This document shows, one piece after another, positions 46,594 to 61,000 of a DNA stretch of 61,789 nt. The stretch comes from Labrys wisconsinensis (GTDB lineage Bacteria; Pseudomonadota; Alphaproteobacteria; Rhizobiales; Labraceae), in assembly GCF_030814995.1 (NCBI RefSeq), contig NZ_JAUSVX010000031.1:1-61789 (forward strand), written 5' to 3'. The notes under the pieces are model-generated. The model saw only the letters and a program-made list of their open reading frames with translations. It had not been told where the DNA came from and made no database searches. Position numbers and translations under genes: made by a program. Within the stretch, counting starts at the first letter, position 1. Every line of letters starts with the position of its first letter.

Positions 46594-47577
46594 TCAGGTG
46601 TTGCGCTTCAGCGCGCCGATCGCCATGGCCATGAGGATGAAGCCGCCGTTCAGGGCGAAGCGGTAGGGCGCGCCCAGGCCGAGCAGGGTCAGGCCATTGC
46701 CGAGAAAGGTGATGAACAGGGCGCCGATCAGCGTGCCCCAGATGGTGATCTCCGCCCGCCGCGACAGCAGCGTCCCGAGATAGACGGCGGCGAAGGCGTC
46801 GAGCAGATAGGCCTCGGCGCCGCGCGGCACCGCGATCGAGGTGCGCGAGACCAGCGCCACCCCGGCGATGCTCGACAGCAGGCCGGCGAGGACGAAGCCG
46901 CCGGCGAACACGGCGCGCACGTCGATGCCGGCGAGATAGGCCGCGCGCGCATTGCCGCCGATCGCCCGCGCCCGCCGCGCGAAGCTGGTCATGGTGGTGA
47001 CCAGCATCATCGCGGCGAACACGACGAGGCCGAGCACGACCAGCGCCGAGACCGGGCCGATCGAGCCCTGGCCGATGAAGAAGAAGGCGCGCGTGAGGCC
47101 GCGGGGCAGCGTGAACAGGATCTGCGGCTCGGCGCCGTTGGTCATCAGCAGCTCGCCCGAGCGGATGACGAACATCATGCCCAGCGTGCCGATGATGGCG
47201 GGGATGCCGGCATAGGCGGCGAGCACGCCGTTGACGAGGCCGGCCAGCAGGCCGAAGGCGAGCGGCGCGGCCAGGACCAGCCAGAGCGGCTGGCCGTGCA
47301 GCACCAGCACCGCGGCGAGCAGGCCGGCGGCATCGGCGATCTGGGCGACGGAGAGGTCGACCCCGCGCATCGCCATCACCACGCCGAGCCCGAACGACAT
47401 CACCACCAGGATGACGCTCTGGTGCAGCACGTTGCCGATATTGGCGAGGCTGAAGAACGCCGGCTTCAGCACCGCGAAGATCATCAAGACCGCCAGCATG
47501 CCGACCGCCGGGCCATAGGCGCGCAGCTGCTCGACGAGGACGGGGGCGCGGGTGGGCCGGGCGGCAGCGGATGACAT
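46594..47577 (-). CDS. ABC importer permease (RbsC type)
   Basis: 327 aa, about ten hydrophobic helices; CUT2 blocks MRGVDLSVAQ, GGNARAAYLAGIDVRAVF and LGTLLSRRAEITIWGTLIGA are present. It starts 8 bases after the stop of the ATPase-permease fusion, with AAAGG upstream. With the permease half of that fusion it would complete the channel. Confidence 0.88.
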   Translation of the reverse strand: MSSAAARPTRAPVLVEQLRAYGPAVGMLAVLMIFAVLKPAFFSLANIGNVLHQSVILVVMSFGLGVVMAMRGVDLSVAQIADAAGLLAAVLVLHGQPLWLVLAAPLAFGLLAGLVNGVLAAYAGIPAIIGTLGMMFVIRSGELLMTNGAEPQILFTLPRGLTRAFFFIGQGSIGPVSALVVLGLVVFAAMMLVTTMTSFARRARAIGGNARAAYLAGIDVRAVFAGGFVLAGLLSSIAGVALVSRTSIAVPRGAEAYLLDAFAAVYLGTLLSRRAEITIWGTLIGALFITFLGNGLTLLGLGAPYRFALNGGFILMAMAIGALKRNT

Positions 47578-47585
47578 GGCGGCCT

Positions 47586-50114
47586 TTAGAAAATGAGCAC
47601 CTGGCCGATGGCGCGCTTGCGCAACAGGCCGAGCGAGACCGAGAGGACCAGCACCATGCCCTGGATCCCGGGCAGGGCCTGGTTCGAGATCCCGAGGAGG
47701 ATCAGGCCGTTGGAGAGCGAGGCCAGGAAGATCGCCGCCACCACGGTGCCGACGACGTTGAGCTCCCCGGCGCGCGACATGGTGCTGCCGAGGAAGGTGG
47801 CGGCCAGGGCGCTGATCAGGAAGTCGACCCCGGTGGCCAGCGCCGAGGCGCCGTAGCTGTAGGCGGCCAGCACCACTCCGGCGAGGCCGAGCACCAGCCC
47901 GCCGAGCGCGAAGGAGGCGAAGGCATAGCGCGTCCGCCCGACCCCGCGCAGCAGCGCCGCCGCCGCGTTCTGGCCCACGGCGTACATGCGCAGCCCGAGC
48001 CGCGTCTCCTTGAGCAGGACGTGAAGCGCGGCGGTGACGGCGACGAGCAGGATGAACACGAAGGGCACGGGCCCGACATAGCCCTGGCCGAGGAAGAAGA
48101 AGTCCGGCCGATTGGCGAGCGTCAGCGCCTGGCCGCCATTGTAGAGCAGCGTCGCGCCCATGACGACGAACATCATGCCGAGGGTGGCGACGAAGGCCGG
48201 GATGCGCAGCGCCAGCACCAGGCCGGCATTGACGGCGCCGACGGCGAGGCCGAGGACGCCGCCGAGCGCGATCGCCGCCGCCGAGCCGAAGCCCGCGAGC
48301 AGCGTGCCGGCCGCGACATTGGCGGCGAACTGGCTGGCGGCGCCCGCCGACATGTCGAAGCCGCCGGCGATCAGCACCACGGTGAGGCCGAGCGCGATGA
48401 AGGCGAGGACGCTGCCCTGCTTGAGCACGTCGAAGATATTGCCGATCGCCAGGAACTGCGGCGCCAGCGCGGCGATGACCGCGACCGTCAGCGCCATGCC
48501 GGCGACCGTGCCCCAGCGGGACAGGATGGTCGCGACGGGACCTTGCCGCGCGGCCTTCGCCGCCGCATCGCCCGCCCGGGCCGGAGCCTCGCCGGCGCTG
48601 CCCGAGGCCCAGTCGAGCAGCGCCTCGGGCGTCGCCGCCGCCTGGTCCTCGATCACCCCAGCGATCCGCCCGCGGCGCATCACCACCGTGCGGTCGCACA
48701 TGGCGGAGATCTCCTCGAAGTCCGAGGAGATGAAGATCACCGCGGCGCCGGACCGCGCCAGCTCGACCATCTGGCGATAGATCTCGATCTTGGAGCCGAC
48801 GTCGACGCCGGTGGTCGGCTCGTCGAACAGGAAGACCCGGGAGTCGCCGGTGAGCCAGCGCCCGACCACGACCTTCTGCTGGTTGCCGCCGGAGAGGTTG
48901 CGTGCCGGGGTCCGGATCGAGGGCGGCTGGATGCCGAGGCGGGCGACGAGCTCGCGCGCCGCCGCCGCTTCCCGGCCGAGGTCGAGCAGGCCGAATCGGG
49001 CCCAACGCGCCACGTTCGGCAGGGTCAGGTTCTCGCGCACCGGCAGGTCGATCACCAGCCCTTCCTGCCGCCGGTCCTCCGGGATCAGCGCGAAACCCTC
49101 GGCCATGGCCGCGCGCGGACCGGCGGGCGCGGACGGACGGCCGCCGATGCTGACCGTGCCGCCCTGGCGCGGCAGCGCGCCGACCAGGGTCAGCGCCAGC
49201 TCCGAGCGGCCGGCGCCGACCAGGCCGGCAATGCCGAGGATCTCGCCGCGGCGCACGGTGAGGTCGATGCCGTGCAGCGCCGGCCCCTCCAGGCCGCGCA
49301 CCTCCAGGAGCGCGTCGCCGATCGGCACGCTCTCCTTGGGGTAGAGCTGCGAGACCTCGCGGCCGACGATCATCCGCACGATGTCGGCGCGGGAAATCTC
49401 GCCGGCCGGCACCGTCGCCACCAGCCGGCCGTCCCGCAGCACCGAGATGCGGTCGACCAGGCTCAGCACCTCGTCGAGATAGTGGGAGATATAGATGATG
49501 GTGACGCCGTCGTCGCGCAGCGCGCGGACGATCTCGAACAGGCGCTCGGCCTCCTTGTCGCTGAGCGAGGCGGTCGGCTCGTCGAGGATGAGGGCGGTGG
49601 GCTGGCGCAGCAGGGCGGCGGCGATCGCCACCTGGGCGCGCTGCGCCACGGAGAGGTCGCGCACCAGCACGTCGGGCGAGAAGTCGGCCTGGACGCGGTC
49701 GAGCGCCGCCTGCACGCGCCGGCGCATCGCCGGGCGGTCGAGCAGGCCGCCGCGCACGATCTCGTTGCCGAGCAGGGCGTTGCCGGTCACGTCGAGCTGG
49801 GCGACGAGCTGCTGGTCCTGGTGGACGATGGCGATGCCCTTGGCTTCGGCGTCGCGGACGTCGCGCAGGCGGACCTCCGCGCCGTCGACGAGGATGCGGC
49901 CCGCATCCGGCTGGTAGACGCCGGTCAGGATCTTGACCAGGGTCGACTTGCCCGCGCCGTTCTGGCCGAGGAGCGCGTGGATCTCGCCCCGCGCCACCGC
50001 CACCGACACGTCGTCGAGGGCGGTCACGCCCGGAAAGACCTTCCGGATCGAGCGGCACTCGACGGCAGGGCGCGCGGGCGCCGCGGCGACGGGGTCCGGG
50101 CTGGCGATGGACAT
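47586..50114 (-). CDS. Sugar-type ABC importer: RbsA-like ATPase fused to RbsC-like permease (second fusion)
   Basis: 842 aa. NBD1: GQNGAGKST, LSVAQRAQ, LILDEPTASLS. NBD2: GLVGAGRSE, LSGGNQQKVVVGRW, FLFDEPTTGVD. A linker of about 35 residues (Ala/Gly/Asp-rich) leads to a complete RbsC-type permease (about 540-842) with AGGFDMSAG. The same unusual ATPase-permease order is found in the fusion at 7033-9546, but here the second Walker B is normal. It operates with the binding protein upstream and the free permease downstream. Confidence 0.9.
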   Translation of the reverse strand: MSIASPDPVAAAPARPAVECRSIRKVFPGVTALDDVSVAVARGEIHALLGQNGAGKSTLVKILTGVYQPDAGRILVDGAEVRLRDVRDAEAKGIAIVHQDQQLVAQLDVTGNALLGNEIVRGGLLDRPAMRRRVQAALDRVQADFSPDVLVRDLSVAQRAQVAIAAALLRQPTALILDEPTASLSDKEAERLFEIVRALRDDGVTIIYISHYLDEVLSLVDRISVLRDGRLVATVPAGEISRADIVRMIVGREVSQLYPKESVPIGDALLEVRGLEGPALHGIDLTVRRGEILGIAGLVGAGRSELALTLVGALPRQGGTVSIGGRPSAPAGPRAAMAEGFALIPEDRRQEGLVIDLPVRENLTLPNVARWARFGLLDLGREAAAARELVARLGIQPPSIRTPARNLSGGNQQKVVVGRWLTGDSRVFLFDEPTTGVDVGSKIEIYRQMVELARSGAAVIFISSDFEEISAMCDRTVVMRRGRIAGVIEDQAAATPEALLDWASGSAGEAPARAGDAAAKAARQGPVATILSRWGTVAGMALTVAVIAALAPQFLAIGNIFDVLKQGSVLAFIALGLTVVLIAGGFDMSAGAASQFAANVAAGTLLAGFGSAAAIALGGVLGLAVGAVNAGLVLALRIPAFVATLGMMFVVMGATLLYNGGQALTLANRPDFFFLGQGYVGPVPFVFILLVAVTAALHVLLKETRLGLRMYAVGQNAAAALLRGVGRTRYAFASFALGGLVLGLAGVVLAAYSYGASALATGVDFLISALAATFLGSTMSRAGELNVVGTVVAAIFLASLSNGLILLGISNQALPGIQGMVLVLSVSLGLLRKRAIGQVLIF

Positions 50115-50174
50115 GCGACGAACCTTCGAACCGGGGAGGCTGCCGGAGCGTGGATCCCGCTCCGGCAGGACGCG

Positions 50175-51221
50175 TCAGGGCAGGACGGGCCGCACGACCA
50201 CGAGCTGGCCGTCCTGGGGCCAGCGGCCCTCCACGTCGGCCTTGGCGATGCCGAGCGCGTCCCACACGCCGGGGCCCCAGCGCTTCTCCGCCGCGGCGGC
50301 GCCGTTGGCATGGGTGGCGACATAGACCTCGGTGAAGATGGCGCTCGGGAACTCCTTCTTGCCGCCGATGGCGGAGACCAGGGCGTCCGCCGCCAGCCGG
50401 CCGATCGCCGGCACGTCCTGCACCACGGTCGCCACGAACGGGCTCTTCTCGTCGAGCAGCATCTGGAAGCCGATGCGGTCGCCGTCGATCGAGGCGATCT
50501 TGATCTCGTCACGCCCGGCGCGCCGCACCGCCTCGACCGCGCCGGAGACCAGGAGGTCGTAGGCGCCCCAGACGCCGGCGATGCTGCCCTTCTCGGGATT
50601 GGCGGTCAGCAGGTCCTCCATCTGGGTCTGCACCTTGGCGGCGCTGTGCTCGGTGGGCACCCACTGCACCTTGACGTTGGGATAGTCGGCGACGACCGCC
50701 TCGAACACGCGCTTGCGCGTCTCGAGCAGCGGCGCACCCGGCACCCAGAAGGCGACGACATTGCCCTTGTAGTCGATGCTGGAGAGCAGCGAGCGCGCCA
50801 GCATGGCGGCCATCAGGGCCTCGTCGCCGCCGACATCGGCGATGGCGCCGGCCGTCTTGGAGCCGATCGAGGTGGTGATCACCGGGATGCCTGCGGCATT
50901 GGCCTTGGCCACGACCGGCGCGAGCTGCTGGGGATCGCCGAGCTGGACGATGATGCCGGCGACGCCGGAATTGATCAGGCTCTCGATGTTCTCGTTGTGC
51001 TTGCGCGGGTCGGTGCCGCCGTCGGTGACCACGACCTCGGCGCCCGCGGCCTTCAGCACGGCGGTGGCGCCGGAGATGATGTCCCTGTTGTAGTCGTTGG
51101 TGATCTCGCGGGAGGCAAGACCGATCTTCTTGCCGGCCAGCGCCTGGGCATGGGCCGATCCGGCCGCAAGCGCCACCGTCGCCAGCAGCGCCGCCGCTGC
51201 CAGCCCCCTCAGCATGTTCAT
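50175..51221 (-). CDS. Periplasmic sugar-binding protein (RbsB/Peripla_BP_4 type)
   Basis: 348 aa. Signal peptide MNMLRGLAAAALLATVALAA to about AHAQA. The mature part follows the type-I fold: KIGLASREITNDYNRDIISG, VTDGGTDPRKHNENIESLIN, IIVQLGDPQQ, ITTSIGSKTAGAIADVGGDE and, late, SIDGDRIGFQMLL. It is the first gene of a five-gene operon (binding protein, fusion, permease, amidohydrolase, SorC). GGAGGA lies 6 bases before ATG 51221. A promoter and a palindrome lie upstream. Confidence 0.9.
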   Translation of the reverse strand: MNMLRGLAAAALLATVALAAGSAHAQALAGKKIGLASREITNDYNRDIISGATAVLKAAGAEVVVTDGGTDPRKHNENIESLINSGVAGIIVQLGDPQQLAPVVAKANAAGIPVITTSIGSKTAGAIADVGGDEALMAAMLARSLLSSIDYKGNVVAFWVPGAPLLETRKRVFEAVVADYPNVKVQWVPTEHSAAKVQTQMEDLLTANPEKGSIAGVWGAYDLLVSGAVEAVRRAGRDEIKIASIDGDRIGFQMLLDEKSPFVATVVQDVPAIGRLAADALVSAIGGKKEFPSAIFTEVYVATHANGAAAAEKRWGPGVWDALGIAKADVEGRWPQDGQLVVVRPVLP

Positions 51222-51264
51222 GGCAGTCCTCCGTCGTTTCCTCGGCGCTTGGCGCGCGCTTATG

Positions 51265-51278
51265 CGAGCAATTGCTCG
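51265..51278. promoter_or_regulatory. Perfect 14-bp palindrome, candidate operator
   Basis: CGAGCAATTGCTCG lies 44 bases before the start of the sugar-binding-protein gene and just downstream of the promoter at 51287-51315, where binding would stop transcription. The SorC protein ending the operon or the UTRA-GntR protein upstream are candidates to bind it; the sequence does not decide. Confidence 0.6.
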
Positions 51279-51286
51279 ACACTCAA

Positions 51287-51315
51287 ATAATTGCGCGATT
51301 GCAAACCGAAGTCAA
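51287..51315 (-). promoter_or_regulatory. Sigma-70-like promoter of the third CUT2 operon
   Basis: On the minus strand TTGACT (51310-51315), a 17-base spacer, then AATTAT (51287-51292). This is the best promoter-like element in the window and lies 66 bases before the binding-protein start. The stretch from 51316 to 51563 holds no supported gene. Confidence 0.55.
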
Positions 51316-51563
51316 CGATCAGATGGCAGATAAAGGCCACGCATTTTGATCGACCATCAGGCAAATATTCGATCTGCTGAAGTGGCGACCCCGCCTCCTC
51401 GGATGACGCCGCGCCTCTCCGGCGGATTTCGCATCGGGGGCGACGGCGCAGCGAGGAGCGGTTGTCGAAGAGCATGGGGTCACCCGGCTCGATGCCGTCG
51501 CCCCGATGGCTCCCATGTCGCTCGACGACGCCTTGATAAAATGCGCGGGCTCGTCGCCGCGGC

Positions 51564-52283
51564 TCAATAGTCGAGGATGAAGTCGACGCGGCTGCCGCAG
51601 TAGGCCGTCGTGCCGAAGAACACCGGCACGTCGGCGTCGTCGACGTTGAGAATATCCAATTGAAAGACCGGGTCCTGCGCCGACATCTTGAGATGGCGGG
51701 CTTCCTCCGCCTCGGGCAGGCGGCATCGGATGCGCGCGGTCTTGCGCCGGAAGGTCTTCACGCCCAGCTCCGCCACAAGCTCCGACAAGGAGAGTGGCAA
51801 GCTCTGCCCGAGGGGTATCCGGGAGAGGACCTGCCCGACATCCGGGAACCGCTCCACCGGAAAGTGGATCAGGGCCTGATGCACCGGTACGCCGTTGGCC
51901 TCGCCGAGCAGCGTGACCGTCTGGATCGGCGAGCCTGCCTTGATCTGCAACTGATGTGCGATCGCCGTCGGTGCGGGATAGGTGATCACCGACAGGACCT
52001 GCCGGGTCGGCACGCGCATGTTTTCGAGCAGGTTCTGCTCGAAGCGGGCCTGGGTCCCGATACGATAGGCGATGGCATCATCAACCACGAAGGTGCCGCG
52101 CCCACGCTCGGAGCGAACGAGTCCCAGGGCCTGGAGATGTGATAGCGCGCGCCGCACCGTATGGCGGTTGACCCCGAAACGCGTGGCAAGCTCGACGTCG
52201 CCCGGCAGCCGTCCGCCGGACTCCAGCACGCCACCTTCGATTTCCTTGACGAGCGTGTCGCTGATGCCTTGCCAGATCGCCAT
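51564..52283 (-). CDS. GntR-family regulator, HutC/PhnF subfamily (UTRA domain)
   Basis: 239 aa from ATG 52283, chosen because GAGGGG lies about 5 bases upstream while the earlier ATG at 52349 has no site. Residues 1-70: winged helix (WQGISDTLVKEIEGG, LPGDVELATRFGVNRHTVRR, RGRGTFVVDD). Residues about 95-239: UTRA ligand domain (QTVTLLGEANGVPVHQALIH, FPVERFPDVG; ending in FGTTAYCGSRVDFILDY). The UTRA pattern resembles PhnF-type regulators but many UTRA proteins sense sugars or amines. It is upstream of the sugar operon on the same strand. Confidence 0.88.
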   Translation of the reverse strand: MAIWQGISDTLVKEIEGGVLESGGRLPGDVELATRFGVNRHTVRRALSHLQALGLVRSERGRGTFVVDDAIAYRIGTQARFEQNLLENMRVPTRQVLSVITYPAPTAIAHQLQIKAGSPIQTVTLLGEANGVPVHQALIHFPVERFPDVGQVLSRIPLGQSLPLSLSELVAELGVKTFRRKTARIRCRLPEAEEARHLKMSAQDPVFQLDILNVDDADVPVFFGTTAYCGSRVDFILDY

Positions 52284-52484
52284 TCCACCCCTCTGCCTCT
52301 CGCCCCCGAGATCGTCGTCAGACGTGGACGGCGTCGCCGTTTGCATCATCCGGTCGTCACAGGGTATCGGCAGAAGTATAGTTGTCTATGTTTGAACTGC
52401 AAGCTCGTGCCGCTGCGACGTCCGCTGCCGGTGATGCGCTGAAGCCGGCCCCATGGCTGGCGAGGCGCGCCGACGGAGAAAGAG

Positions 52485-52550: not shown

Positions 52551-53432
52551 CTAGTCCCCCGCGGTCTTCTCCGGCCGCCAGGACATGAGCCGCTCCTCGA
52601 TCAGGGTCAGGACCCCCTCGGCGATCAGCGCGACGACGGCGATCACGATCATGGCCGTGAAGACGCCGTTGGCGTCGAAGGAGCCCTGCGCGGTCGCGAT
52701 CAGCATGCCCATGCCCTGCCGGGCACCGAGGAATTCGCCGACGATCGCGCCGACGAGGGCAAAGCCGAAGGAGACGTGCAGGCTGGCCAGGATCCACGAG
52801 AGGGCAGACGGCATGACGACCGATCGGGTGATCGCCCACCGCGACGCACCGAGGATGCGGGCGTTGGCGATGAGGTTCTTGTCGGCCTCGCGGACGCCCT
52901 GGAAAGCGTTGGCGAAGACGACGAAGAAGACCATCACGACGGCGAGCGCGATCTTGGATGCCGCGCCGAGCCCGAGCGCCACGATGAAGATGGAGCCGAG
53001 CACGACGCGCGGAATCGAGTTGGCGATCTTGATGTAGATCGAGAACACATCGGCCAGAAGCGCGTTCCGGCCGAGCACGACGCCGCAGAGGATGCCCAGC
53101 ACCGACCCGATCAGGAAGCCGGCTCCCGCCTCGTAGATCGTCACCCAGACCTGGAACCAGAGCGGCCCGATCGAGGTCCCGTCCCGGATCCACTCGACGA
53201 GCTTCGCCGCGATGCCGGAGGGCTGCCCGAAGAAGAAGGGGTCGATGGCGCCGGCACGCACGCCGAGCTCCCAGCCTCCCAGCATGACGATCAGCACCGC
53301 CAGGCGAAGGGCGAGGACGAGCCGCTGGCGACGGCGCTGCCGTTCGGCGAGCGAATGCAGCTTGAGCGTCCCGCCCTGCGCCTTGGGCGGCGCAGGCGAC
53401 TGGACGGAAAGGCTCGCAACAGGGGTCGACAT
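52551..53432 (-). CDS. ABC importer permease (SsuC/TauC type)
   Basis: 293 aa with about six hydrophobic helices; the cytoplasmic EAA loop that docks the ATPase is seen as FQGVREADKNLIANARILGA (about residues 175-195). It has the LGILCGVVLGRN segment typical of SsuC/TauC permeases. Start 10 bases after the ATPase stop. Fourth and last gene of the minus-strand arm. Confidence 0.88.
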   Translation of the reverse strand: MSTPVASLSVQSPAPPKAQGGTLKLHSLAERQRRRQRLVLALRLAVLIVMLGGWELGVRAGAIDPFFFGQPSGIAAKLVEWIRDGTSIGPLWFQVWVTIYEAGAGFLIGSVLGILCGVVLGRNALLADVFSIYIKIANSIPRVVLGSIFIVALGLGAASKIALAVVMVFFVVFANAFQGVREADKNLIANARILGASRWAITRSVVMPSALSWILASLHVSFGFALVGAIVGEFLGARQGMGMLIATAQGSFDANGVFTAMIVIAVVALIAEGVLTLIEERLMSWRPEKTAGD

Positions 53433-53441
53433 CGGCGGCTC

Positions 53442-54245
53442 CTAGTGGCCTGCCCGCGCCTTCAGGACTTCTTCCCGAAGGTCGTCGGCGACGTGGCGGG
53501 CAATGTCGATGAAGCGCTCGTCGTAGCGCAGGGACGCGATGTTGCGCGGCCGCGGCAGATCGATCCGATGCACCGACTTGATCCGTGCGGGACGCGACGT
53601 CAGCACGGCGACACGGTCGGCGAGCAGGATCGCCTCATCGAGGTCATGGGTGACGAACAGGACCGCGCCGCTGTTCTGCGCCCACAGGCCCAGCAGCTCC
53701 TCCTGCATCAGCTCGCGCGTCTGCACGTCGAGGGCCGAGAAGGGCTCGTCCATCAGCAGCACCTCCGGCTTGTTGATGAAGGTCTGCGCCAGCGCGACGC
53801 GCTTGCGCATGCCGCCCGAGAGCTGGTGCGGGTGGCTCCTCTCGAAGCCGTCGAGATGGACCCGCCCGATCCAGTCCCGCGCCTGGCGCTCGGCTTCGGC
53901 CCTGGAGGTTCCGCGAAACAGCGGCCCAGCCGCGACGTTCGAGAGCACGTCGCGCCAGGGAAACACCGCGTCCTGCTGGAACACGAAGCCGACCCGCCGG
54001 TCGACGTCGACCACCGGCCGGCCGAAGAGCTTCACGCTGCCCTCCTGCGGCCGGGCGAGCCCGGCAATCAGCCCGAGCGTGGTGGACTTGCCGCAGCCGG
54101 TCGGCCCGACGATGGCGCAGAACTCGCCGGGCTCGATATCGAGGCTGAAGTCCTCGAGCGCCGACACGATGCTGCCGGCCGGCGACACGAAGCGCCGGGC
54201 GACACCAGACAAACTGACAGCCGGATCCATCGCGCAGCGCCTCAA
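53442..54245 (-). CDS. ABC importer ATPase (SsuB/TauB type)
   Basis: 267 aa, single NBD. Walker A GPTGCGKST, Q-loop VFQQDAVFPW, signature LSGGMRKRVAL, Walker B VLLMDEPFSALD and switch His in FVTHDLDEA are all intact. The start overlaps the end of the binding-protein gene (ATGA). Drives import by the SsuC-like permease. Confidence 0.92.
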   Translation of the reverse strand: MRRCAMDPAVSLSGVARRFVSPAGSIVSALEDFSLDIEPGEFCAIVGPTGCGKSTTLGLIAGLARPQEGSVKLFGRPVVDVDRRVGFVFQQDAVFPWRDVLSNVAAGPLFRGTSRAEAERQARDWIGRVHLDGFERSHPHQLSGGMRKRVALAQTFINKPEVLLMDEPFSALDVQTRELMQEELLGLWAQNSGAVLFVTHDLDEAILLADRVAVLTSRPARIKSVHRIDLPRPRNIASLRYDERFIDIARHVADDLREEVLKARAGH

Positions 54246-55237
54246 GACCCGTTGGCGCGCGACACGAACTCGGCCGTGTAGGTCCTGGAGAGGTCGATCT
54301 CCTTGCCTTGGACAGCCGGATTCACCGCCTTGAGCACGCGCAGCACGTTCTCGGCGGCGCTCGCGCTCAGCACGCCGTCCTTGGAGTATTGCGACTTGCC
54401 GTCCCGAAGACCTTGCACATAGAGGTCACGGTCACCGGCGTAGTAATCCTTCGGCATCTTGTCGGCGATGTCTTCCGGCGAATGGGCGTCGATCCACTTC
54501 AGCGTCCCGATGAAGGCATTGACGACCTTCTGGACCGTCTCGCGGTTCCCGTCCAACCAGCCTGCATCGACATAGACGCAAGCGCTGGGATAGTCGCCGC
54601 CGAGGGCCGCCCGCGTGGTGTCCGGATTGCGCAGGTCGATCCCGACCTTCGCGATCCCCATCTTGAGGGCCCGCGAAACGGTCGGTTCCGTCGTCATTCC
54701 GGCCACGATGCGGTTCTGCTGGAGGGCGGCGATCATGGTGTCGCCGGCGCCGACGGGGATCGTCGAAATTTCACTCGGCTTCAGGCCTGCCTTGGTCGCG
54801 AGATAGCGGGTGAGGAAATCCGTCGCCGAGCCGAGCCCGGTCACGCCGAGCGCGTGGCCCTTCCAGTTCGCCGGATTCGAAAAGGTGTCGGCGTCCTTGG
54901 CGACCACCAGCTCGACTTCGCCGGGCGAGATGGAGAGCTGGGCGACATTGACGATATGCTTGCCCTTGGCTTGCAGATCGATGGTGTGATCATAGAAGCC
55001 GACGACCACCTGCACTTCCCCGGCAAGAAGCGCGGTCGCCGCCTGGGACCCGGAATTCGAGTTGTAGAGCTCGACGTCGAGGCCCTGCTCCTTGAAGTGG
55101 CCGAGCTGATCGGTGAGCTTGACGGGCAGGTAGGCCTGCTTGTCGATTCCGCCGACCATCAGCTTGATCTTGGTCTGAGCGGCAGCCGGCGCCATCGCGG
55201 CCGCCAACAGCATTGCGGCTATCAGAATTCTTCTCAT
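54242..55237 (-). CDS. Periplasmic substrate-binding protein (NMT1/SsuA type)
   Basis: 331 aa. Signal peptide MRRILIAAMLLAAAMAPAAA. Mature region: KIKLMVGGIDKQAYLPVKLT, then LGHFKEQGLDVELYNSNSGS, QAATALLAGEVQVVVGFYDH and TIPVGAGDTMIAALQQNRI, the NMT1/SsuA/TauA pattern. This fold binds small sulfonates, nitriles, thiamine precursors or carboxylates. Next to the PrpB-like lyase and the aconitase/PrpF genes, a carboxylate is the most likely ligand. GGGAG precedes the ATG. Confidence 0.88.
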   Translation of the reverse strand: MRRILIAAMLLAAAMAPAAAQTKIKLMVGGIDKQAYLPVKLTDQLGHFKEQGLDVELYNSNSGSQAATALLAGEVQVVVGFYDHTIDLQAKGKHIVNVAQLSISPGEVELVVAKDADTFSNPANWKGHALGVTGLGSATDFLTRYLATKAGLKPSEISTIPVGAGDTMIAALQQNRIVAGMTTEPTVSRALKMGIAKVGIDLRNPDTTRAALGGDYPSACVYVDAGWLDGNRETVQKVVNAFIGTLKWIDAHSPEDIADKMPKDYYAGDRDLYVQGLRDGKSQYSKDGVLSASAAENVLRVLKAVNPAVQGKEIDLSRTYTAEFVSRANGS

Positions 55238-55272
55238 GGATGATCTCCCTATCGATATGATTATTGTCGCGA

Positions 55273-56199
55273 TCAGGTCTTTGCGGAGTAACGCCGCTCC
55301 AACTGATCGTAAAAGTCCCGTCGCACCAGGTCCTGGCGACGCCGGAAGCTCGTGACGGGACCGGATTCGTCGAGCGCGCCGGTATCCCGCAGGTGCGTGA
55401 GCGCCAGCTCCATGCCCGCCACCGCCCCCTGGAGCGCGGCATTGGCATAGAGAATGAGGCTGAAGCCTGCCTTGCGGAGTTTTTCGCGGCCGAGGATCGG
55501 CGTGCGCCCGCCCACGACCATGTTGACGAGCTGAGGCGCGCCGACGAGCCGCGCCATGGACAGGATCTCGTCTTCACTCTGCGGCGCCTCGATGAACAGG
55601 ACGTCGGCGCCGGCTTCGCAATAGCGGTTCGCTCGCTCGATCGCCCGGCCGAAGCCGTGCACGGCCCGGGCGTCCGTCCGGGCGATGACCAGCAGGTTCT
55701 CGTCGTGCCTGGCATCGACGGCCGCCTTGAGCTTGTCGACCATCTCGTCCGTCGACACGACATCTTTGCCGGCAAAGTGACCGCAGCGCTTGGGCGAGAC
55801 CTGGTCCTCGAGCTGGATCGCGCTCGCCCCGGCTCGTTCGAGGGTTCTCACGGTGTGGCGCACGTTGAGCGCATTGCCGAAGCCGGTGTCGGCGTCGACG
55901 ACCAGCGGCAGGTCCGTTGCATTCCGCAGGGCGCTGGTGTGCTGGGCGAGCTCGGGCAAGGACACGAAGCCGAGATCGGGCAGCCCGAGATAGGTGTTGG
56001 TCAGGCCGGCGCCGGACAGATAGAGCGCCTCGAAGCCGAGATCCGCGATGACGAGCGCGGCCAGCGCATTGGCGGCTCCCGGCAGCAGGATCCCCTCGCG
56101 TGCTTCGACGCGGCTCCTGAAGCGCTGTCTGATCCCCTGATCCAATTCGCCCCCCTGCGAAGGCTCGCCCACGCCGAAGAAACCTGCACAGGGGCCCAT
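55273..56199 (-). CDS. Isocitrate lyase/PEP mutase superfamily (2-methylisocitrate lyase-like, PrpB family)
   Basis: 308 aa. Family blocks: GFEALYLSGAG, DADTGFGNALNV with metal-binding Asp, and QLEDQVSPKRCGHFAGK, in which KRCGH holds the catalytic Cys of PrpB-type methylisocitrate lyases (isocitrate lyase proper has KKCGH). Reaction expected: cleavage of a 2-hydroxy-tricarboxylate to pyruvate (or glyoxylate) and a dicarboxylate. The start is unsure: ATG 56199 has no good site and would put an operator-like repeat at 56204, whereas TTG 56145 follows GGGGGG and begins near the usual family N terminus. First gene of the minus arm. Confidence 0.85.
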   Translation of the reverse strand: MGPCAGFFGVGEPSQGGELDQGIRQRFRSRVEAREGILLPGAANALAALVIADLGFEALYLSGAGLTNTYLGLPDLGFVSLPELAQHTSALRNATDLPLVVDADTGFGNALNVRHTVRTLERAGASAIQLEDQVSPKRCGHFAGKDVVSTDEMVDKLKAAVDARHDENLLVIARTDARAVHGFGRAIERANRYCEAGADVLFIEAPQSEDEILSMARLVGAPQLVNMVVGGRTPILGREKLRKAGFSLILYANAALQGAVAGMELALTHLRDTGALDESGPVTSFRRRQDLVRRDFYDQLERRYSAKT

Positions 56200-56203
56200 C
56201 AAT

Positions 56204-56213
56204 CTGTCAACAG
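56204..56213. promoter_or_regulatory. Operator-like half palindrome at the PrpB-like gene
   Basis: CTGTCAACAG has CTGT/ACAG arms, matching the core of the 18-bp palindrome at 56274-56291 (CTGTCGACAG) except for the centre. Its complement reads CTGTTGACAG and includes a TTGACA. It could be a second binding site for the same regulator. Confidence 0.45.
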
Positions 56214-56273
56214 TTTTTGAGAAAAATTCCGAGAAGTACGGCTATCGTCCGTATACAGCGAGGTCATTCACCA

Positions 56274-56291
56274 AATTCTGTCGACAGAATT
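56274..56291. promoter_or_regulatory. Perfect 18-bp palindrome, probable operator between the divergent arms
   Basis: AATTCTGTCGACAGAATT is completely symmetrical, 70 bases before the aconitase ATG and 75 from the PrpB-like ATG. The GntR-FCD gene at the end of the plus arm is the natural candidate to bind it and so to control importer, lyase, aconitase and isomerase together. Confidence 0.7.
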
Positions 56292-56361
56292 GGCGTTCCG
56301 CCCTTGTCCGCATTGGTCGCCCCGATATAGAAAGGGCGCACCTCGCGGAGAAACGCCCCCC

Positions 56362-59052
56362 ATGCCGCCCGCCCTCTCGAAGGACCGTGAGCTCACGGTC
56401 GAAGGCCGCCGTCACCGCATCTGCCCATTCTCGGACCTGCCGGGGGACCTGGCGGCGCGGGCGGAGCGGCTGCCTTTCGTGGTCCGGATTCTCCTGGAGA
56501 ACGTCTTGCGCCATGTCGGCCGCAACGACGTCACGATGGACGATGCCGTCCGGCTCGCCGGCTGGGACCCGGCCGCCGAAGCCGTCACGGAGGTGCCGTT
56601 CCATCCCGCCCGCGTGCTGATGCAGGACTATACCGGCATCCCCACCCTGGTGGACCTCGCCGCCATGCGCGACGCGATGGCGGCGCTGGGCCATGACGCG
56701 CGCATCGTCAACCCGCAGATCCCGGTCGATCTCGTCATCGATCATTCGCTGATCGTGGACGAGGCCGGGCATGCCGGCGCGGCCGCCATCAACCTCGAGC
56801 ACGAGTACCGCCGCAACCGCGAACGCTATCACCTGGCCAAATGGGCGGAGCGCAATTTCAGCGGCATGCGCGTCGTGCCGCCCGGCCGCGGCATCCTCCA
56901 CCAGATCAACATCGAAGCGATTGCGAAAGTCGTGCGCAGCGAGCCGGGCTCCGACGGAGCGGCTTTCGCCTTTCCCGACACGATGGTGGGCACGGACAGC
57001 CACAGCACCATGGTCAACGGCATCGGCGTCCTGGGCTGGGGGGTCGGCGGGATCGAGGCGGAAGCCGCGATGCTGGGACTGCCGCTCGTCGTGCCGCTGC
57101 GCCGCGTGCACGGCGTGCGGCTCGAGGGCGAGCTGCGCGAGGGCGTGACGGCGACCGACCTGGTCCTGACGCTCACCGAGCGGCTGCGCGCCGTCGGCGT
57201 CGTCGACGCCTTTGTCGAATTCTTCGGACCGGGCCTTGCCGGACTTGCCGTCGTCGATCGGGTCACGATCGCCAACATGGCGCCGGAATACGGATCGTCC
57301 TGCGCCTTCTTCCCCGTGGACCAGCAGACGCTCGCCTATCTCGGAGGGACGGGGCGGCCGCCCGAGGCCGTGGCCCTGGTCGAGGCCTATGCGCGAGCCC
57401 AGGGCCTGTGGCGGGACGCCTCGGACCCGGAGCGGCTGTACAGCGGCGTGACGGCCTTCGACCTCTGCGCCGTCGAGCCCTGCGCGGCAGGTCCGCGCCG
57501 GCCGCAGGACCGTGTCCCTCTCGCGGCCATCGCGGACAGCTTCCGCGCCGCGATGAATGTCGAGGCCCCAGGCGATCGGCTGCCAGCGGACGGGATGCGG
57601 GACGGCGCGGTGGTGATCGCCGCCGTCACGAGCTGCACCAACACCTCCAATCCGCATGTGATGGTGGCTGCGGGGCTCCTGGCCCGCAAGGCGGTTGCAG
57701 CCGGCCTGCGGACGAAGCCATGGGTCAAGACCTCCCTCACGCCGGGCTCGCGTGTCGTCGGCGCCTACCTTCGGGACAGCGGGCTGCAGGCCGATCTGGA
57801 TCGTCTCGGCTTCCAGATCGCCGGTTACGGCTGCGCCACCTGCGGCGGCAATTCCGGCCGGCTCGCCGAAGCGATCGAGGCGGACATCGAAGCGCGCGGC
57901 ATCGTCGCGGCCGCCGTCCTCTCCGGGAACCGCAACTTCGAGGCGCGCATCCACCCGCTCGCCCGGGCCAACTACCTCATGTCGCCGCCGCTCGTGGTCG
58001 CCTATGCGCTCGCCGGCAACGTCACGGTCGACCTCACGACCGAGCCTCTCGGCTGCGGGGCGGACGGACGGCCCTTGTTCCTGCGCGACATCTGGCCCAG
58101 CTCGGCCGAGATCGAGGCGGTCCTCGCCGCCACGGTCTCGCCCGGCCTGTTCCGATCGAAATACGAAAGATTGTTCGAAGGCGACCCGAAATGGCAGGCG
58201 CTCGAGGCGCCGCCAGGCTCCCGCTTTCCCTGGGATGCGGCCAGCACCTATATTCGCCGGCCGCCCTACTTCGACGGGCACGAGCCGGAGGCATCCGCGC
58301 CGCAGGATGTCCGGGGCGCGCGCTGCCTCGTCATGCTGGCGGACTCGATCACGACCGATCACATCTCCCCGGTCGGCGACATATCGCCCACCTCCCCCGC
58401 CGGCCGCTTCCTCCAGGACAGGCAGGTCGGCCCGCGCGATTTCAACGCCTACGGGTCGCGGCGCTCGAACCACGAGGTGATGGTGCGCGGCACCTTCGCG
58501 AATATCCGCCTGCGCAACGAGCTCGTTCCCGGACACGAAGGCGGCGTCACCCGCGACCTCGAGACCGGCGAGATCCTGCCGATCTACGACGCGGCCATGG
58601 CCTATGCCGCCCGCGGGGTGCCGTTCGTCATCGTGGCGGGTCGCGACTACGGCGCCGGCTCCTCGCGCGACTGGGCCGCCAAGGGAACGCGGCTGCTCGG
58701 CGTGCGCGCCGTCCTGGCCGAGAGCTTCGAGCGGATCCACCGGGCGAACCTCATCAGCATGGGCGTGCTGCCGCTCCAGTTCCCGCCGGGCACCGATCGC
58801 CGGAGCCTCGCGCTGACGGGCAGCGAATGGTTCGACATACCGGATCTGGCGGCTCGCCTGGCTCCGGGTGCCGAGGTCCCGGTCTTCATCCGCCGGACGG
58901 ACGGAACCGTCGAGACGGTGGTCATGCGCTCGCGCATCGACACGGCCAACGAGAGCAAGGTGCTCGCCGGCGGGGGCATCCTGCCCTTCGTGCTGCGCCG
59001 CCTCTCGGCCAGGGCCGGCGCGGCGCCCGACATCGAGAAGGACGTCGCGTGA
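56362..59052 (+). CDS. Aconitase-family hydratase (AcnA type)
   Basis: 896 aa, the length of AcnA. The three cluster cysteines are present: one in TSCTNTSNPH and two in GYGCATCGGNSG. Other blocks: VGTDSHSTMVNGIGVLGWGV, FPVDQQTLAYL, NRNFEARIHP, and the C-terminal swivel domain DYGAGSSRDWAAKG. It is closer in these blocks to AcnA than to the AcnD group, although it is followed by a PrpF-like gene, as acnD is. It hydrates/dehydrates cis-aconitate or an alkyl derivative. GGAG lies upstream of ATG 56362; TGA overlaps the next ATG. Confidence 0.9.
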   Translation: MPPALSKDRELTVEGRRHRICPFSDLPGDLAARAERLPFVVRILLENVLRHVGRNDVTMDDAVRLAGWDPAAEAVTEVPFHPARVLMQDYTGIPTLVDLAAMRDAMAALGHDARIVNPQIPVDLVIDHSLIVDEAGHAGAAAINLEHEYRRNRERYHLAKWAERNFSGMRVVPPGRGILHQINIEAIAKVVRSEPGSDGAAFAFPDTMVGTDSHSTMVNGIGVLGWGVGGIEAEAAMLGLPLVVPLRRVHGVRLEGELREGVTATDLVLTLTERLRAVGVVDAFVEFFGPGLAGLAVVDRVTIANMAPEYGSSCAFFPVDQQTLAYLGGTGRPPEAVALVEAYARAQGLWRDASDPERLYSGVTAFDLCAVEPCAAGPRRPQDRVPLAAIADSFRAAMNVEAPGDRLPADGMRDGAVVIAAVTSCTNTSNPHVMVAAGLLARKAVAAGLRTKPWVKTSLTPGSRVVGAYLRDSGLQADLDRLGFQIAGYGCATCGGNSGRLAEAIEADIEARGIVAAAVLSGNRNFEARIHPLARANYLMSPPLVVAYALAGNVTVDLTTEPLGCGADGRPLFLRDIWPSSAEIEAVLAATVSPGLFRSKYERLFEGDPKWQALEAPPGSRFPWDAASTYIRRPPYFDGHEPEASAPQDVRGARCLVMLADSITTDHISPVGDISPTSPAGRFLQDRQVGPRDFNAYGSRRSNHEVMVRGTFANIRLRNELVPGHEGGVTRDLETGEILPIYDAAMAYAARGVPFVIVAGRDYGAGSSRDWAAKGTRLLGVRAVLAESFERIHRANLISMGVLPLQFPPGTDRRSLALTGSEWFDIPDLAARLAPGAEVPVFIRRTDGTVETVVMRSRIDTANESKVLAGGGILPFVLRRLSARAGAAPDIEKDVA

Positions 59053-60218
59053 TGCCGCAGCTTTCGGTCCCGGCAGTCTACGTGCGCGGCGGAACCAGCC
59101 GCGCGCTGGTGTTCCGGGCGCAGGACCTTCCGGAGGACGCGCGGCTGCGCGACGCGATCATTCTCGCCGCGCTGGGCAGCCCCGATCCGAACAAGCGTCA
59201 GCTCGACGGGCTCGGAGGCGCGATATCGTCCTTGTCGAAGGTCGCGATCGTCGCGCCCGCATCACGCCCCGACGCCGATGTCGACTACACCTTCGGTCAG
59301 GTCGCCATCGACGCCCCCATCGTCGGCTATCGCGGCAATTGCGGCAACATCTCCGCGGCGATCGGCCCCTTCGCGGTCGACGAAGGCATGGTCGCGACGA
59401 CGGGCGATACGGCGCGCGTGCGCATTCACAACACCAATACCGGCAAGATCATCGTGTCGGACTTCCCGCTGCAGGACGGGCGCGCCGCCGTGGACGGCGA
59501 CTTCGAGCTGCCGGGCGTGGCCGGAACCGGCGCACCGGTGCGCCTGTCCTTCCTCGACCCCGGCGGCGCGGTCACCGGCCGCCTCCTGCCGACCGGCGCT
59601 CCGGTCGAGCGGCTCGATCTGCCGGGATTCGGCGCTATTGCGGTGTCGCTGGTGGACGCCGCCAATCCCGTCGTGTTCGTGGCCGCCGACACGCTGGGGC
59701 TCGACGGCACCGAGAGGCCGTCGGATCTCGAGCAGGACGCGGGCTTGATGAAGGCGTTCGAGGACCTGCGGGTTGCGGCCGCGCTGCGCATGGGCATCGC
59801 GGCTGACGAGGACGAGGCCCGTCGACGGGTCCGCAACCTGCCCCAGGTCGGCATCGTTTCGCGCCCTGCCACGGCGCGGACGGCGAGCGGCGGGACGATA
59901 TGCGCCGACGACGTTCACATCACGACGCGGATGATCTCGGCCGGACAGCCCCACCGAGCCTCGCCGCTGACGGGGGCGATGTGCCTTGCGGTTGCGATGC
60001 GCATCGCAGGAACGCTGCCGCACGGGCTCGCGCGCCCGTCCGACGAGGGCCGGGACATGATCATCGGCCATCCCTCCGGCACGCTGCCGGTCGCGGCCCG
60101 CGTCACGAACGGGCCGGAGCCGCACGCCCGCGAAGCGGTGGTATACCGAACGTCGCGGCGGTTGATGGAGGGGCGCGTGCTGGTGCCGCGCAGCGCGCTC
60201 GGACGAGCGGATACATGA
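59052..60218 (+). CDS. prpF: PrpF-family isomerase (methylaconitate / methylitaconate isomerase-like)
   Basis: 388 aa. PrpF pattern: VPAVYVRGGTSRALVF at the start, RQLDGLGGAISSLSKVAIVA (conserved Gly/Lys region), YRGNCGNISAAIGPFAVDEG, and HTN-like IHNTNTGKIIV; the C-terminal half ends in VRVTNGPEP-type AARVTNGPEPHAREAVV. Members shift the double bond of unsaturated tri- or dicarboxylates (2-methyl-trans-aconitate, methylitaconate, oxalomesaconate). ATG 59052 overlaps the aconitase stop, and its own stop overlaps the GntR start (ATGA). Confidence 0.88.
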   Translation: MPQLSVPAVYVRGGTSRALVFRAQDLPEDARLRDAIILAALGSPDPNKRQLDGLGGAISSLSKVAIVAPASRPDADVDYTFGQVAIDAPIVGYRGNCGNISAAIGPFAVDEGMVATTGDTARVRIHNTNTGKIIVSDFPLQDGRAAVDGDFELPGVAGTGAPVRLSFLDPGGAVTGRLLPTGAPVERLDLPGFGAIAVSLVDAANPVVFVAADTLGLDGTERPSDLEQDAGLMKAFEDLRVAAALRMGIAADEDEARRRVRNLPQVGIVSRPATARTASGGTICADDVHITTRMISAGQPHRASPLTGAMCLAVAMRIAGTLPHGLARPSDEGRDMIIGHPSGTLPVAARVTNGPEPHAREAVVYRTSRRLMEGRVLVPRSALGRADT

Positions 60219-61000
60219 GCACCCATCGGTCCATCGAGATTTCCGACGAAGCCGGCGAAGACGAAGCGTGGGAGCCGGCGGCGGCGAGCATCTACGCCCA
60301 ATTGCAGGAAGAGATCCTCGACGGGCTCCTTCCGCCCGGGACCGTGATCAGCGAAGTCATGCTGTCGCGCCGCTTCGGCGTCAGCCGCGCGCCGCTGCGC
60401 GAGGCGGTCTGGCGGCTGGAGAAGCGAGGCCTGCTGGTGCGCCCGCCGCGCCAGAGGGCGCGAGTCGTCACCGTCTCGACGTCCCAGGTCGAGCAGATAT
60501 TCCTTCTCCGCGAGGTGGTCGAAGGACTGGCCGCCCGCGAGGCCGCGAGACACATCACCGCCGATGAGATCGCCTCGATGCGGGCAGCCCTGCGCCGGCA
60601 GGCGGAGCAGTCCGCGGCCGGCGGCACCGGCTCCGACCTTCGCAGCGAGCCCGACAACGACTTCCACTTCGCGATCGCGATCGCGAGCCGGAACGAGTTC
60701 GTGATCAAGTTCCTGCGCGACGACTATCACGCCCTCATCGAGCTCTGCCGCCGGCGCCAGCGGCGCGACCCGCACCGGTCCGCGCGCTCATTCGTCGAGC
60801 ACTCGCGCATCGTCGATGCGCTCGAGGACCGCGATGCCGACCTGGCCGAGCTCCAGATGCGGCGCCATATCGAAAATGCCCGCCGGGTCCTGGTCGAACG
60901 CGCGGTGGACCTGCCGGCACCCGATGCGGGCGCCACCGGCGCGCGTCGCAAAAGCCGATCCATCGGCCTGGCGGACCCTGAGGACGGCAGTCGGATATGA
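60215..61000 (+). CDS. GntR-family (FCD domain) transcriptional regulator
   Basis: 261 aa. Winged helix at about 25-90 (IYAQLQEEILDGLLPPGTVI, MLSRRFGVSRAPLREAVWRL), FCD domain after that (FLLREVVEGLAAREAARHIT, DNDFHFAIAIASRNE, HSRIVDALEDRD). The last 30 residues are basic and disordered in look. ATG 60215 overlaps the PrpF stop. Being the last gene of the plus arm, it is very likely the repressor of the divergent cluster, with an organic acid as inducer. Confidence 0.9.
   Translation: MSTHRSIEISDEAGEDEAWEPAAASIYAQLQEEILDGLLPPGTVISEVMLSRRFGVSRAPLREAVWRLEKRGLLVRPPRQRARVVTVSTSQVEQIFLLREVVEGLAAREAARHITADEIASMRAALRRQAEQSAAGGTGSDLRSEPDNDFHFAIAIASRNEFVIKFLRDDYHALIELCRRRQRRDPHRSARSFVEHSRIVDALEDRDADLAELQMRRHIENARRVLVERAVDLPAPDAGATGARRKSRSIGLADPEDGSRI

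Follow-up and report, generated by a model that had tools for sequence, protein, structure and literature searches.

A divergent gene cluster of Labrys wisconsinensis that looks like an import and breakdown unit for an external tricarboxylate

The end steps of nicotinate fermentation are carried out by Mii, the two-subunit hydratase DmdAB and Dml. In the methylcitrate cycle, an exchange of PrpD for Acn plus PrpF has been described in a study of Shewanella PrpF (PMC5690661), which also reports that this isomerase acts on aconitate and that cells with variants of its residues K73 and C107 did not grow on propionate. Bacillus has aconitate isomerases of the PrpF superfamily, TarA and TbrA (PMC11495376). 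For the lyase step, PrpB of Pseudomonas aeruginosa cleaves 2-methylisocitrate and not isocitrate, and residues L521 and S523 of the Aspergillus fumigatus enzyme (F and T in isocitrate lyase, ICL) matter for that specificity (PMC11982470). The subject here is a divergent cluster of seven genes at positions 52551-61000 of a 61,789-nucleotide stretch of Labrys wisconsinensis DNA (assembly GCF_030814995.1, contig NZ_JAUSVX010000031.1), hereafter the window. Judged by its genes and their relatives, the cluster looks like an import and breakdown unit for an external tricarboxylate and not like a housekeeping methylcitrate operon. The favoured reading, given a probability of roughly 0.55, is a substrate-inducible module for an external tricarboxylate of the aconitate or citrate type; the most probable substrates carry a methyl substituent, namely 2-methylcitrate or one of the methylaconitate isomers. 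It is favoured because orthologous units carry the tripartite tricarboxylate transporter TctABC, because PrpD and acnA plus prpF replace one another beside close relatives of the lyase, and because this type of lyase also occurs in prpC-acnD-prpF operons; a glycine at position 495 of the hydratase, TcuA-like neighbours, TctD-like regulators near the importer cassette and an enrichment of operator-like sites upstream of the genes point the same way. The features are as follows.

52551-53432, minus strand: permease of an ATP-binding cassette (ABC) importer (BPD_transp_1, NitT/TauT/Ssu class; PF00528, 93.9 bits)
53442-54230, minus strand: ATPase of the ABC importer (PF00005, 116.6 bits; ATG at 54230 read from the sequence)
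54242-55237, minus strand: periplasmic binding protein of the NMT1/SsuA superfamily (PF13379/PF09084)
55273-56145, minus strand: lyase of the ICL/phosphoenolpyruvate (PEP)-mutase superfamily, distinct subfamily (P0004; PF13714; TIGR02317 290.9 bits, below the PrpB equivalog cut-off of 354.4)
56204-56213, no strand assigned: operator-like site CTGTCAACAG in the probable divergent promoter
56274-56291, no strand assigned: operator-like 18-bp perfect palindrome AATTCTGTCGACAGAATT in the divergent region
56362-59052, plus strand: AcnA-type Fe/S hydratase of 896 residues (P0005; TIGR01341 1174.5 bits, cut-off 945)
59052-60218, plus strand: PrpF-family isomerase (P0006; PF04303, 385.6 bits)
60215-61000, plus strand: GntR-FCD transcriptional regulator (PF00392 and PF07729)

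These seven genes, four on the minus and three on the plus strand in divergent arms, make up the gene content of 52551-61000 and bear out the initial annotation, which had placed an isomerase, an AcnA-type hydratase, a lyase, an ABC importer and a GntR-FCD regulator in one divergent unit. The minus arm is read in the order lyase, binding protein, ATPase, permease (56145 down to 52551); the ATPase frame extends to a TTG at 54245. The lyase frame is open to 56202, orthologues start near residue 20 of that frame, and a candidate TTG lies at 56145 behind AGGGGGG: this TTG is the likely start, and the divergent promoter therefore probably falls at 56146-56361. In the plus arm the acnA stop overlaps the prpF start by one base and the prpF stop overlaps the gntR start by four, so these genes are probably translationally coupled. 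Neither prpC nor prpD is among the seven genes, as had been claimed, and there is no TcuA-like gene among them.

The genome (8.93 Mb in 55 contigs) does hold a canonical prpD-prpC-prpB locus on another contig, C19 (prpD at 94250, prpC at 95853, prpB at 97041; prpC 494 bits with a cut-off of 421, prpB 424 bits with a cut-off of 354). The cluster is therefore not the housekeeping propionate route, and the earlier view that it does not look like propionate detoxification is supported. A housekeeping AcnA, the second in the genome, lies at C1:1034826, and the cluster PrpF is the genome's single PF04303 match. Searches of four further genomes of the genus found neither a relative of the cluster PrpF nor a lyase within the subfamily score range, which suggests that the cluster was acquired as an accessory element.

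In the proposed mechanism, the ABC importer would bring in the tricarboxylate. The PrpF-family enzyme would then shift a double bond (4-methyl- to 2-methyl-cis-aconitate type), and the AcnA-type enzyme would hydrate the product to a 2-methylisocitrate-type hydroxy acid; it may also dehydrate a citrate form. The lyase would cleave the hydroxy acid to pyruvate and succinate. The GntR-FCD protein would bind TGTC(G/A)ACA sites between the arms until the substrate or an intermediate releases it. A complete isomerise-hydrate-cleave route ending in pyruvate or glyoxylate and a dicarboxylate had been suggested before: the recurrence of the gene set in relatives with other transporters speaks for the route, the gaps in lyase distribution given below speak against it, and among the products pyruvate is retained and glyoxylate appears less likely.

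The unit recurs outside Labrys. A scan for PrpF with one genome per species confirmed at least 592 relatives, of which the best 80 loci were matched by tblastn with the cluster proteins. In six of these 80, acnA, prpF and gntR stand together: one in betaproteobacterium GR16-43 (L071), two in Ancylobacter (L072, L073) and three in Pseudoroseomonas (L076, L077, L079). The regulator gene lies behind prpF in Ancylobacter, as in the window, and before acnA in Pseudoroseomonas. Both Ancylobacter loci read acnA-prpF-gntR-TctC-TctB-TctA-lyase (TctC and TctA assigned by Pfam, TctB from its position), and the two sets of orthologues are 69 and 68% (acnA), 67 and 66% (prpF) and 67 and 68% (lyase) identical to the window's; by this comparison the importer slot holds TctABC in exchange for the ABC importer. 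A TctC protein follows prpF in L077, and L079 has the same protein cluster at that place. In GR16-43 the module sits 3.3 kb behind a set that by similarity is prpB-prpC-prpD/mmgE-like-acnA (45%, 71%, 27% and 54% identical, in that order, to genes of the window's own genome). A TcuA-like tricarballylate dehydrogenase homologue lies within 8 kb of PrpF in 19 of the best 80 loci, a label assigned by model in L132 (562 bits, cut-off 369) and by homology to L132 in the others. Aconitase-family proteins of other types also occur near PrpF: cluster 32 is found in four of the best 80 loci, its member in L122 passing the aconitate hydratase cut-off, and L146 has an AcnA-like gene. Among 12 PrpF loci fetched from the order (L055-L066), eight have a lyase nearby, of the window's type in L058 and PrpB-type in the others; L057 has acnA, prpF and a PrpB-type lyase in a row. 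In two of them (L059:7565-11047 and L062:8740-12222) PrpF and a PrpB-type lyase accompany aconitase-family pieces divided between two frames, an arrangement resembling a two-subunit hydratase. In another genome, at L069:6673-10431, a PrpF relative of a different kind (40% identical) immediately precedes genes for a binding protein, ATPase and permease that resemble those of the window (35-49%).

The most interesting part of the cluster is its distinct lyase subfamily. A six-member alignment was searched against 397 genomes of the order and 385 of the class, and in both sets a gap in score separates the subfamily: 11 genomes of the order reach at least 398.7 bits (next 330.2) and 18 of the class at least 382.3 (next 342.0), the window's own genome being counted each time. 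Fetching 28 further loci above the gap gave, with the six starting members, a set of 34; the starting members had mostly been found through PrpF, and the 28 are independent of it. The window lyase reads SGAGxTN, NxVxGGxTP and YANAALQ, and N-x-x-x-GG-x-TP and (Y/F)AN are present in all 34 aligned subfamily sequences, where the PrpB-type lyases of the alignment have NMTEFGxTP and WPVS; an outlier, L104, has GG-x-TP and no YAN. In a tree the 34 form one group (94/98), separate from nine PrpB-type lyases that include the genome's own PrpB (100/100), and the window lyase pairs with Ancylobacter (100/97), followed by L211-L213 and L221 (99/93); L012 and L104 have long branches, L237 and L012 have unusual composition, and the fork of the 34 rows lies just under the star threshold. 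Subfamily lyases score best against the PrpB and carboxyphosphonate-mutase models and stay under the PrpB cut-off. The KRCGH motif, offered earlier as a mark of PrpB, had to be given up: the genome's canonical PrpB (C19:97041-97886) reads KKCGH, and the subfamily has both forms. The predicted structure of the lyase (predicted local distance difference test, pLDDT, 72) added family membership only.

What surrounds the lyase elsewhere bears on its role. Four loci (L211, L212, L213 and L219) combine TctC or TctCBA with a PrpD-like gene, the lyase and gntR, and lack PrpF in the stretch. For three of the four, the PrpD-like protein was compared with a PrpD model and scores 707-730 bits (cut-off 950); that of L211 is 60% identical to the PrpD of the Labrys prpDCB operon on C19. 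Close lyases are thus found beside either PrpD-like genes or acnA plus prpF, so they would work with PrpD or with Acn and PrpF. In genome G570 (L225), a prpC-acnD-prpF operon recognised by curated cut-offs (718/550, 1677/1420 and 711/441) ends in a subfamily lyase (281 bits, with a PrpB cut-off of 354), and the same prpC-acnD-prpF-lyase layout can be read from the sequence in genome G660 (L224). Both operon lyases fall in one clade with the window lyase (100/99). The one other TIGR02317 match in G660 scores 60 bits (G570 has another at 262), which makes the L224 lyase the only strong candidate for a predicted 2-methylisocitrate lyase there. Loss of the T-E-F residues of PrpB was considered as proof against methylisocitrate; that argument is weakened by these operons, which hold the same lyase type. 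The window lyase has L-Y-A at the place of L-Y-P in PrpB, and its Leu251 may be equated with L521 of A. fumigatus PrpB. This comparison, together with the operons, is why pyruvate plus succinate, made from a substrate of the 2-methylisocitrate type, is favoured over glyoxylate plus succinate made from isocitrate. A pair of AtuA (PF07287) and DUF4387 genes recurs beside the subfamily lyase with or without PrpF (L210:924-2617, L222:7183-8828 and L058:6634-8327; Pfam assignment run on L058) and could represent an enzyme of these routes that has so far gone unrecognised. Several subfamily loci have, by eye, quite different neighbours.

The hydratase is an AcnA by model, with an AcnD score (TIGR02333) of 820.9 against a cut-off of 1419.85. 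It has the Fe/S cysteines, in the motifs SCTNTSNP and GCATCGG, and keeps the aconitase motif MQDYTG, which is CHDILG in two AcnDs. The residue that follows the third cluster cysteine is Gly495; at this position there is glycine in seven of seven module enzymes, isoleucine in 30 of 30 sampled housekeeping AcnAs (the genome's own and 29 among the best-scoring, hence chosen by score) and asparagine in both AcnDs. Outside the sampled set, the second AcnA of L071 has isoleucine, the AcnA-like protein of L212 valine, L146 asparagine and L233 glycine. The glycine may widen the pocket for a substituted substrate. At L233:6714-11983 the lyase is divergent from an AcnA-like gene that an ABC ATPase and permease follow, a window-like layout with a variant hydratase; the acnA of L233 was rejected as a close parallel, since its product has MPDSSG in place of MQDYTG and an identity of no more than 52-53%, even though the glycine is present. 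The isomerase, for its part, belongs to PF04303 and has the catalytic lysine and cysteine: K64 and C98 align with K73 and C107 of Shewanella PrpF and are invariant in a 12-row alignment.

The importer had been called SsuABC-like, which holds at the level of the superfamily and no further: the scores to the Ssu models fall far short of the cut-offs (54.9 of 163.5, 162.3 of 395 and 72.6 of 347), as do those of the permease to all NCBIfam equivalogs. Relatives at E 1e-50 or better occur in 72 of the 397 genomes; in genome G235, for example, a 78% identical permease adjoins a 69% identical binding protein. Ten relatives of the cassette were fetched, among them another copy carried by the Labrys genome itself (on C11), and nine keep binding protein, ATPase and permease together. 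Eight of the ten (L269-L275 and L277, the C11 copy included) have genes for a response regulator and histidine kinase in the vicinity; in seven of them these adjoin the permease gene, and in L269 they are 3.4 kb away. One of the regulators was tested, and its best match is TctD, below cut-off (270 bits, cut-off 337); the three kinases tested all have a 2CSK_N domain. These neighbours fit a tricarboxylate-sensing context and make a tricarboxylate a candidate ligand. An ABC importer of this class had seemed unusual for such a substrate; with a two-component system near eight of ten cassette relatives and a regulator closest to TctD, it appears less odd. The modelled binding protein (pLDDT 91) is closest to the solved chain 3qsl (template modelling score 0.86), which was dropped as a clue to the ligand as its title names none.

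Operator-like sites recur as well. CTGTNNACAG occurs twice in the window (0.25 expected; three of 100 shuffles reach two). A scan was made of 17 chosen loci, with the pattern taken from the window and the upstream stretches set by hand: the 6,242 bp of upstream sequence contain 26 matches to TGTC(G/A)ACA or TGTTGACA, against 18 in the other 369,689 bp, and all 17 loci, the window included, have at least one upstream site, figures that apply to these chosen loci. The site of L224 falls inside an open frame. Of the 18 other sites, some precede further genes of the clusters concerned (L072, L073) or miss the upstream stretch narrowly (L076). The GntR-FCD protein is a probable autoregulated repressor of both arms.

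Several results weigh against a methyl-substituted tricarboxylate. The isomerase falls under the PrpF cut-off (TIGR02334, 326.9 with a cut-off of 440.55) and under that of the 4-oxalomesaconate (OMA) tautomerase (318 with a cut-off of 440), and among solved structures methylitaconate isomerase (3g7k, 311 bits) comes closest to it, ahead of PrpF (287). The hydratase keeps MQDYTG and lacks CHDILG, so dehydration of 2-methylcitrate is doubtful. The lyase lacks the NMTEFGxTP and WPVSSLR residues of PrpB and at these places is more like petal death protein (NMIEGGKTP), an enzyme whose substrates are smaller malates. The subfamily lyase is absent from four of the six genomes that have the acnA-prpF module; L221, from the same lyase clade, has TctABC and neither PrpF nor PrpD in the stretch; and PrpF lies in the stretch in only six of the 28 independently found loci (12 of 34 with the starting members), so the subfamily is not confined to the acnA-prpF route. 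The title of 3qsl is an accession without a ligand, and the best NCBIfam matches of the three kinases are QseC and metal-sensor models, below cut-off.

The main rival is assimilation of plain trans-aconitate: PrpF would give cis-aconitate and the extra AcnA, possibly trans-aconitate-resistant, would give isocitrate, with the lyase as a side enzyme or as an isocitrate lyase yielding glyoxylate and succinate. It is a live rival because PrpF-superfamily aconitate isomerases such as TarA and TbrA are known, and the action of Shewanella PrpF on aconitate, the modules lacking the subfamily lyase and the TcuA-like neighbours all agree with it. Nevertheless, a PrpD-like gene stands in for acnA and prpF beside close lyases, and isomerisation of trans-aconitate is not expected of its product; a substituted substrate is suggested by Gly495; relatives of the lyase lie within prpC-acnD-prpF operons; and P. 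aeruginosa PrpB does not cleave isocitrate (PMC11982470). This route is considered unlikely, if still worth serious attention. A good deal less probable is a route without coenzyme A (CoA) through dicarboxylates, resembling nicotinate fermentation, in which methylitaconate or an alkylitaconate would pass through a dialkylmaleate and a 2,3-dialkylmalate to pyruvate and a short or fatty acid. The kinship of the isomerase with methylitaconate isomerase, the likeness of the lyase motif to petal death protein and the gene sets of L059 and L062 would suit it, but the window's hydratase is a single-chain AcnA with aconitase motifs, not a two-subunit enzyme, and relatives carry Tct transporters and PrpD-like genes.

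The cluster could also be a second, redundant propionate detoxification set (a methylcitrate cycle drawing PrpC from C19), as the canonical prpC there and the lyases of prpC-acnD-prpF operons might suggest; with a complete prpDCB already on C19, an importer and regulator of its own and no AcnD, this seems slightly less credible again. The idea of a sulfonate or phosphonate importer that is a chance neighbour of a tricarboxylate operon draws on the NMT1/SsuA superfamily of the binding protein and on the divergence of the operons. However, the importer genes follow the lyase gene in the same direction, all of them behind one operator region, the Ssu/Tau models are far under cut-off, and TctD-like regulators lie beside the cassette relatives: it is the most improbable of the explanations considered.

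Beyond the window, and tentatively (at somewhat less than even odds), the cluster may belong to a widespread unnamed regulon of Pseudomonadota with its own lyase subfamily, hydratases that can replace one another (Gly495 AcnA, PrpD, the MmgE type and perhaps AtuA/DUF4387) and equally exchangeable transporters. Many of its members would lie behind TGTC(G/A)ACA sites, and it would harvest branched tricarboxylates from plants, fungi or other bacteria that are not the carbon source of any described pathway. If the tricarboxylate reading is true, cells would also use the chemistry of the methylcitrate cycle to feed on tricarboxylates from outside, independently of propionate and PrpC; the lyase subfamily would be set apart, with residues that predict a testable specificity, and the ABC importer family would gain a concrete candidate substrate class. 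Next to the cluster, a minus-strand unit at 46594-52349 has a sugar-type binding protein (PF13407), an open reading frame of 842 residues that by eye looks like a fusion of an RbsA-like ATPase with an RbsC-like permease, another permease, and a regulator of the GntR-UTRA type (188.6 bits, above the PhnF cut-off of 156.8).

No description of this gene set or of bacterial use of external methylcitrate was found in the paper listings searched; the chemistry is known, and the PrpC-less assembly, the lyase subfamily and the AcnA variant did not turn up in those listings. With the methylcitrate cycle, in both its AcnD-PrpF (Shewanella) and its PrpD type, the cluster shares an isomerase, an aconitase-family enzyme and a C-C lyase in series, the exchange of PrpD for Acn plus PrpF, and a lyase subfamily found in prpC-acnD-prpF operons; it differs in having no prpC, an importer of its own, AcnA instead of AcnD, a GntR-FCD regulator, and a PrpF and lyase that miss the PrpF and PrpB equivalog cut-offs. 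The trans-aconitate system TarA/TarB/TarR of Bacillus velezensis likewise joins a PrpF-superfamily isomerase to a dedicated importer and a regulator, but its importer belongs to the major facilitator superfamily and its regulator is of the LysR type, where the cluster has an ABC importer and GntR, plus a dedicated hydratase and lyase. Tricarballylate utilisation by TcuABC is echoed by the TcuA-like dehydrogenases near some PrpF relatives, though not by any gene of the cluster itself. The nicotinate end steps also run through an isomerase, an aconitase-family hydratase and an ICL-family lyase, and the cluster isomerase is closest in the Protein Data Bank (PDB) to Mii; the cluster differs in its single-chain AcnA and in having relatives with tricarboxylate transporters. 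TctABC, finally, fills in Ancylobacter and other relatives the slot that a NitT/TauT-class ABC importer holds in the window.

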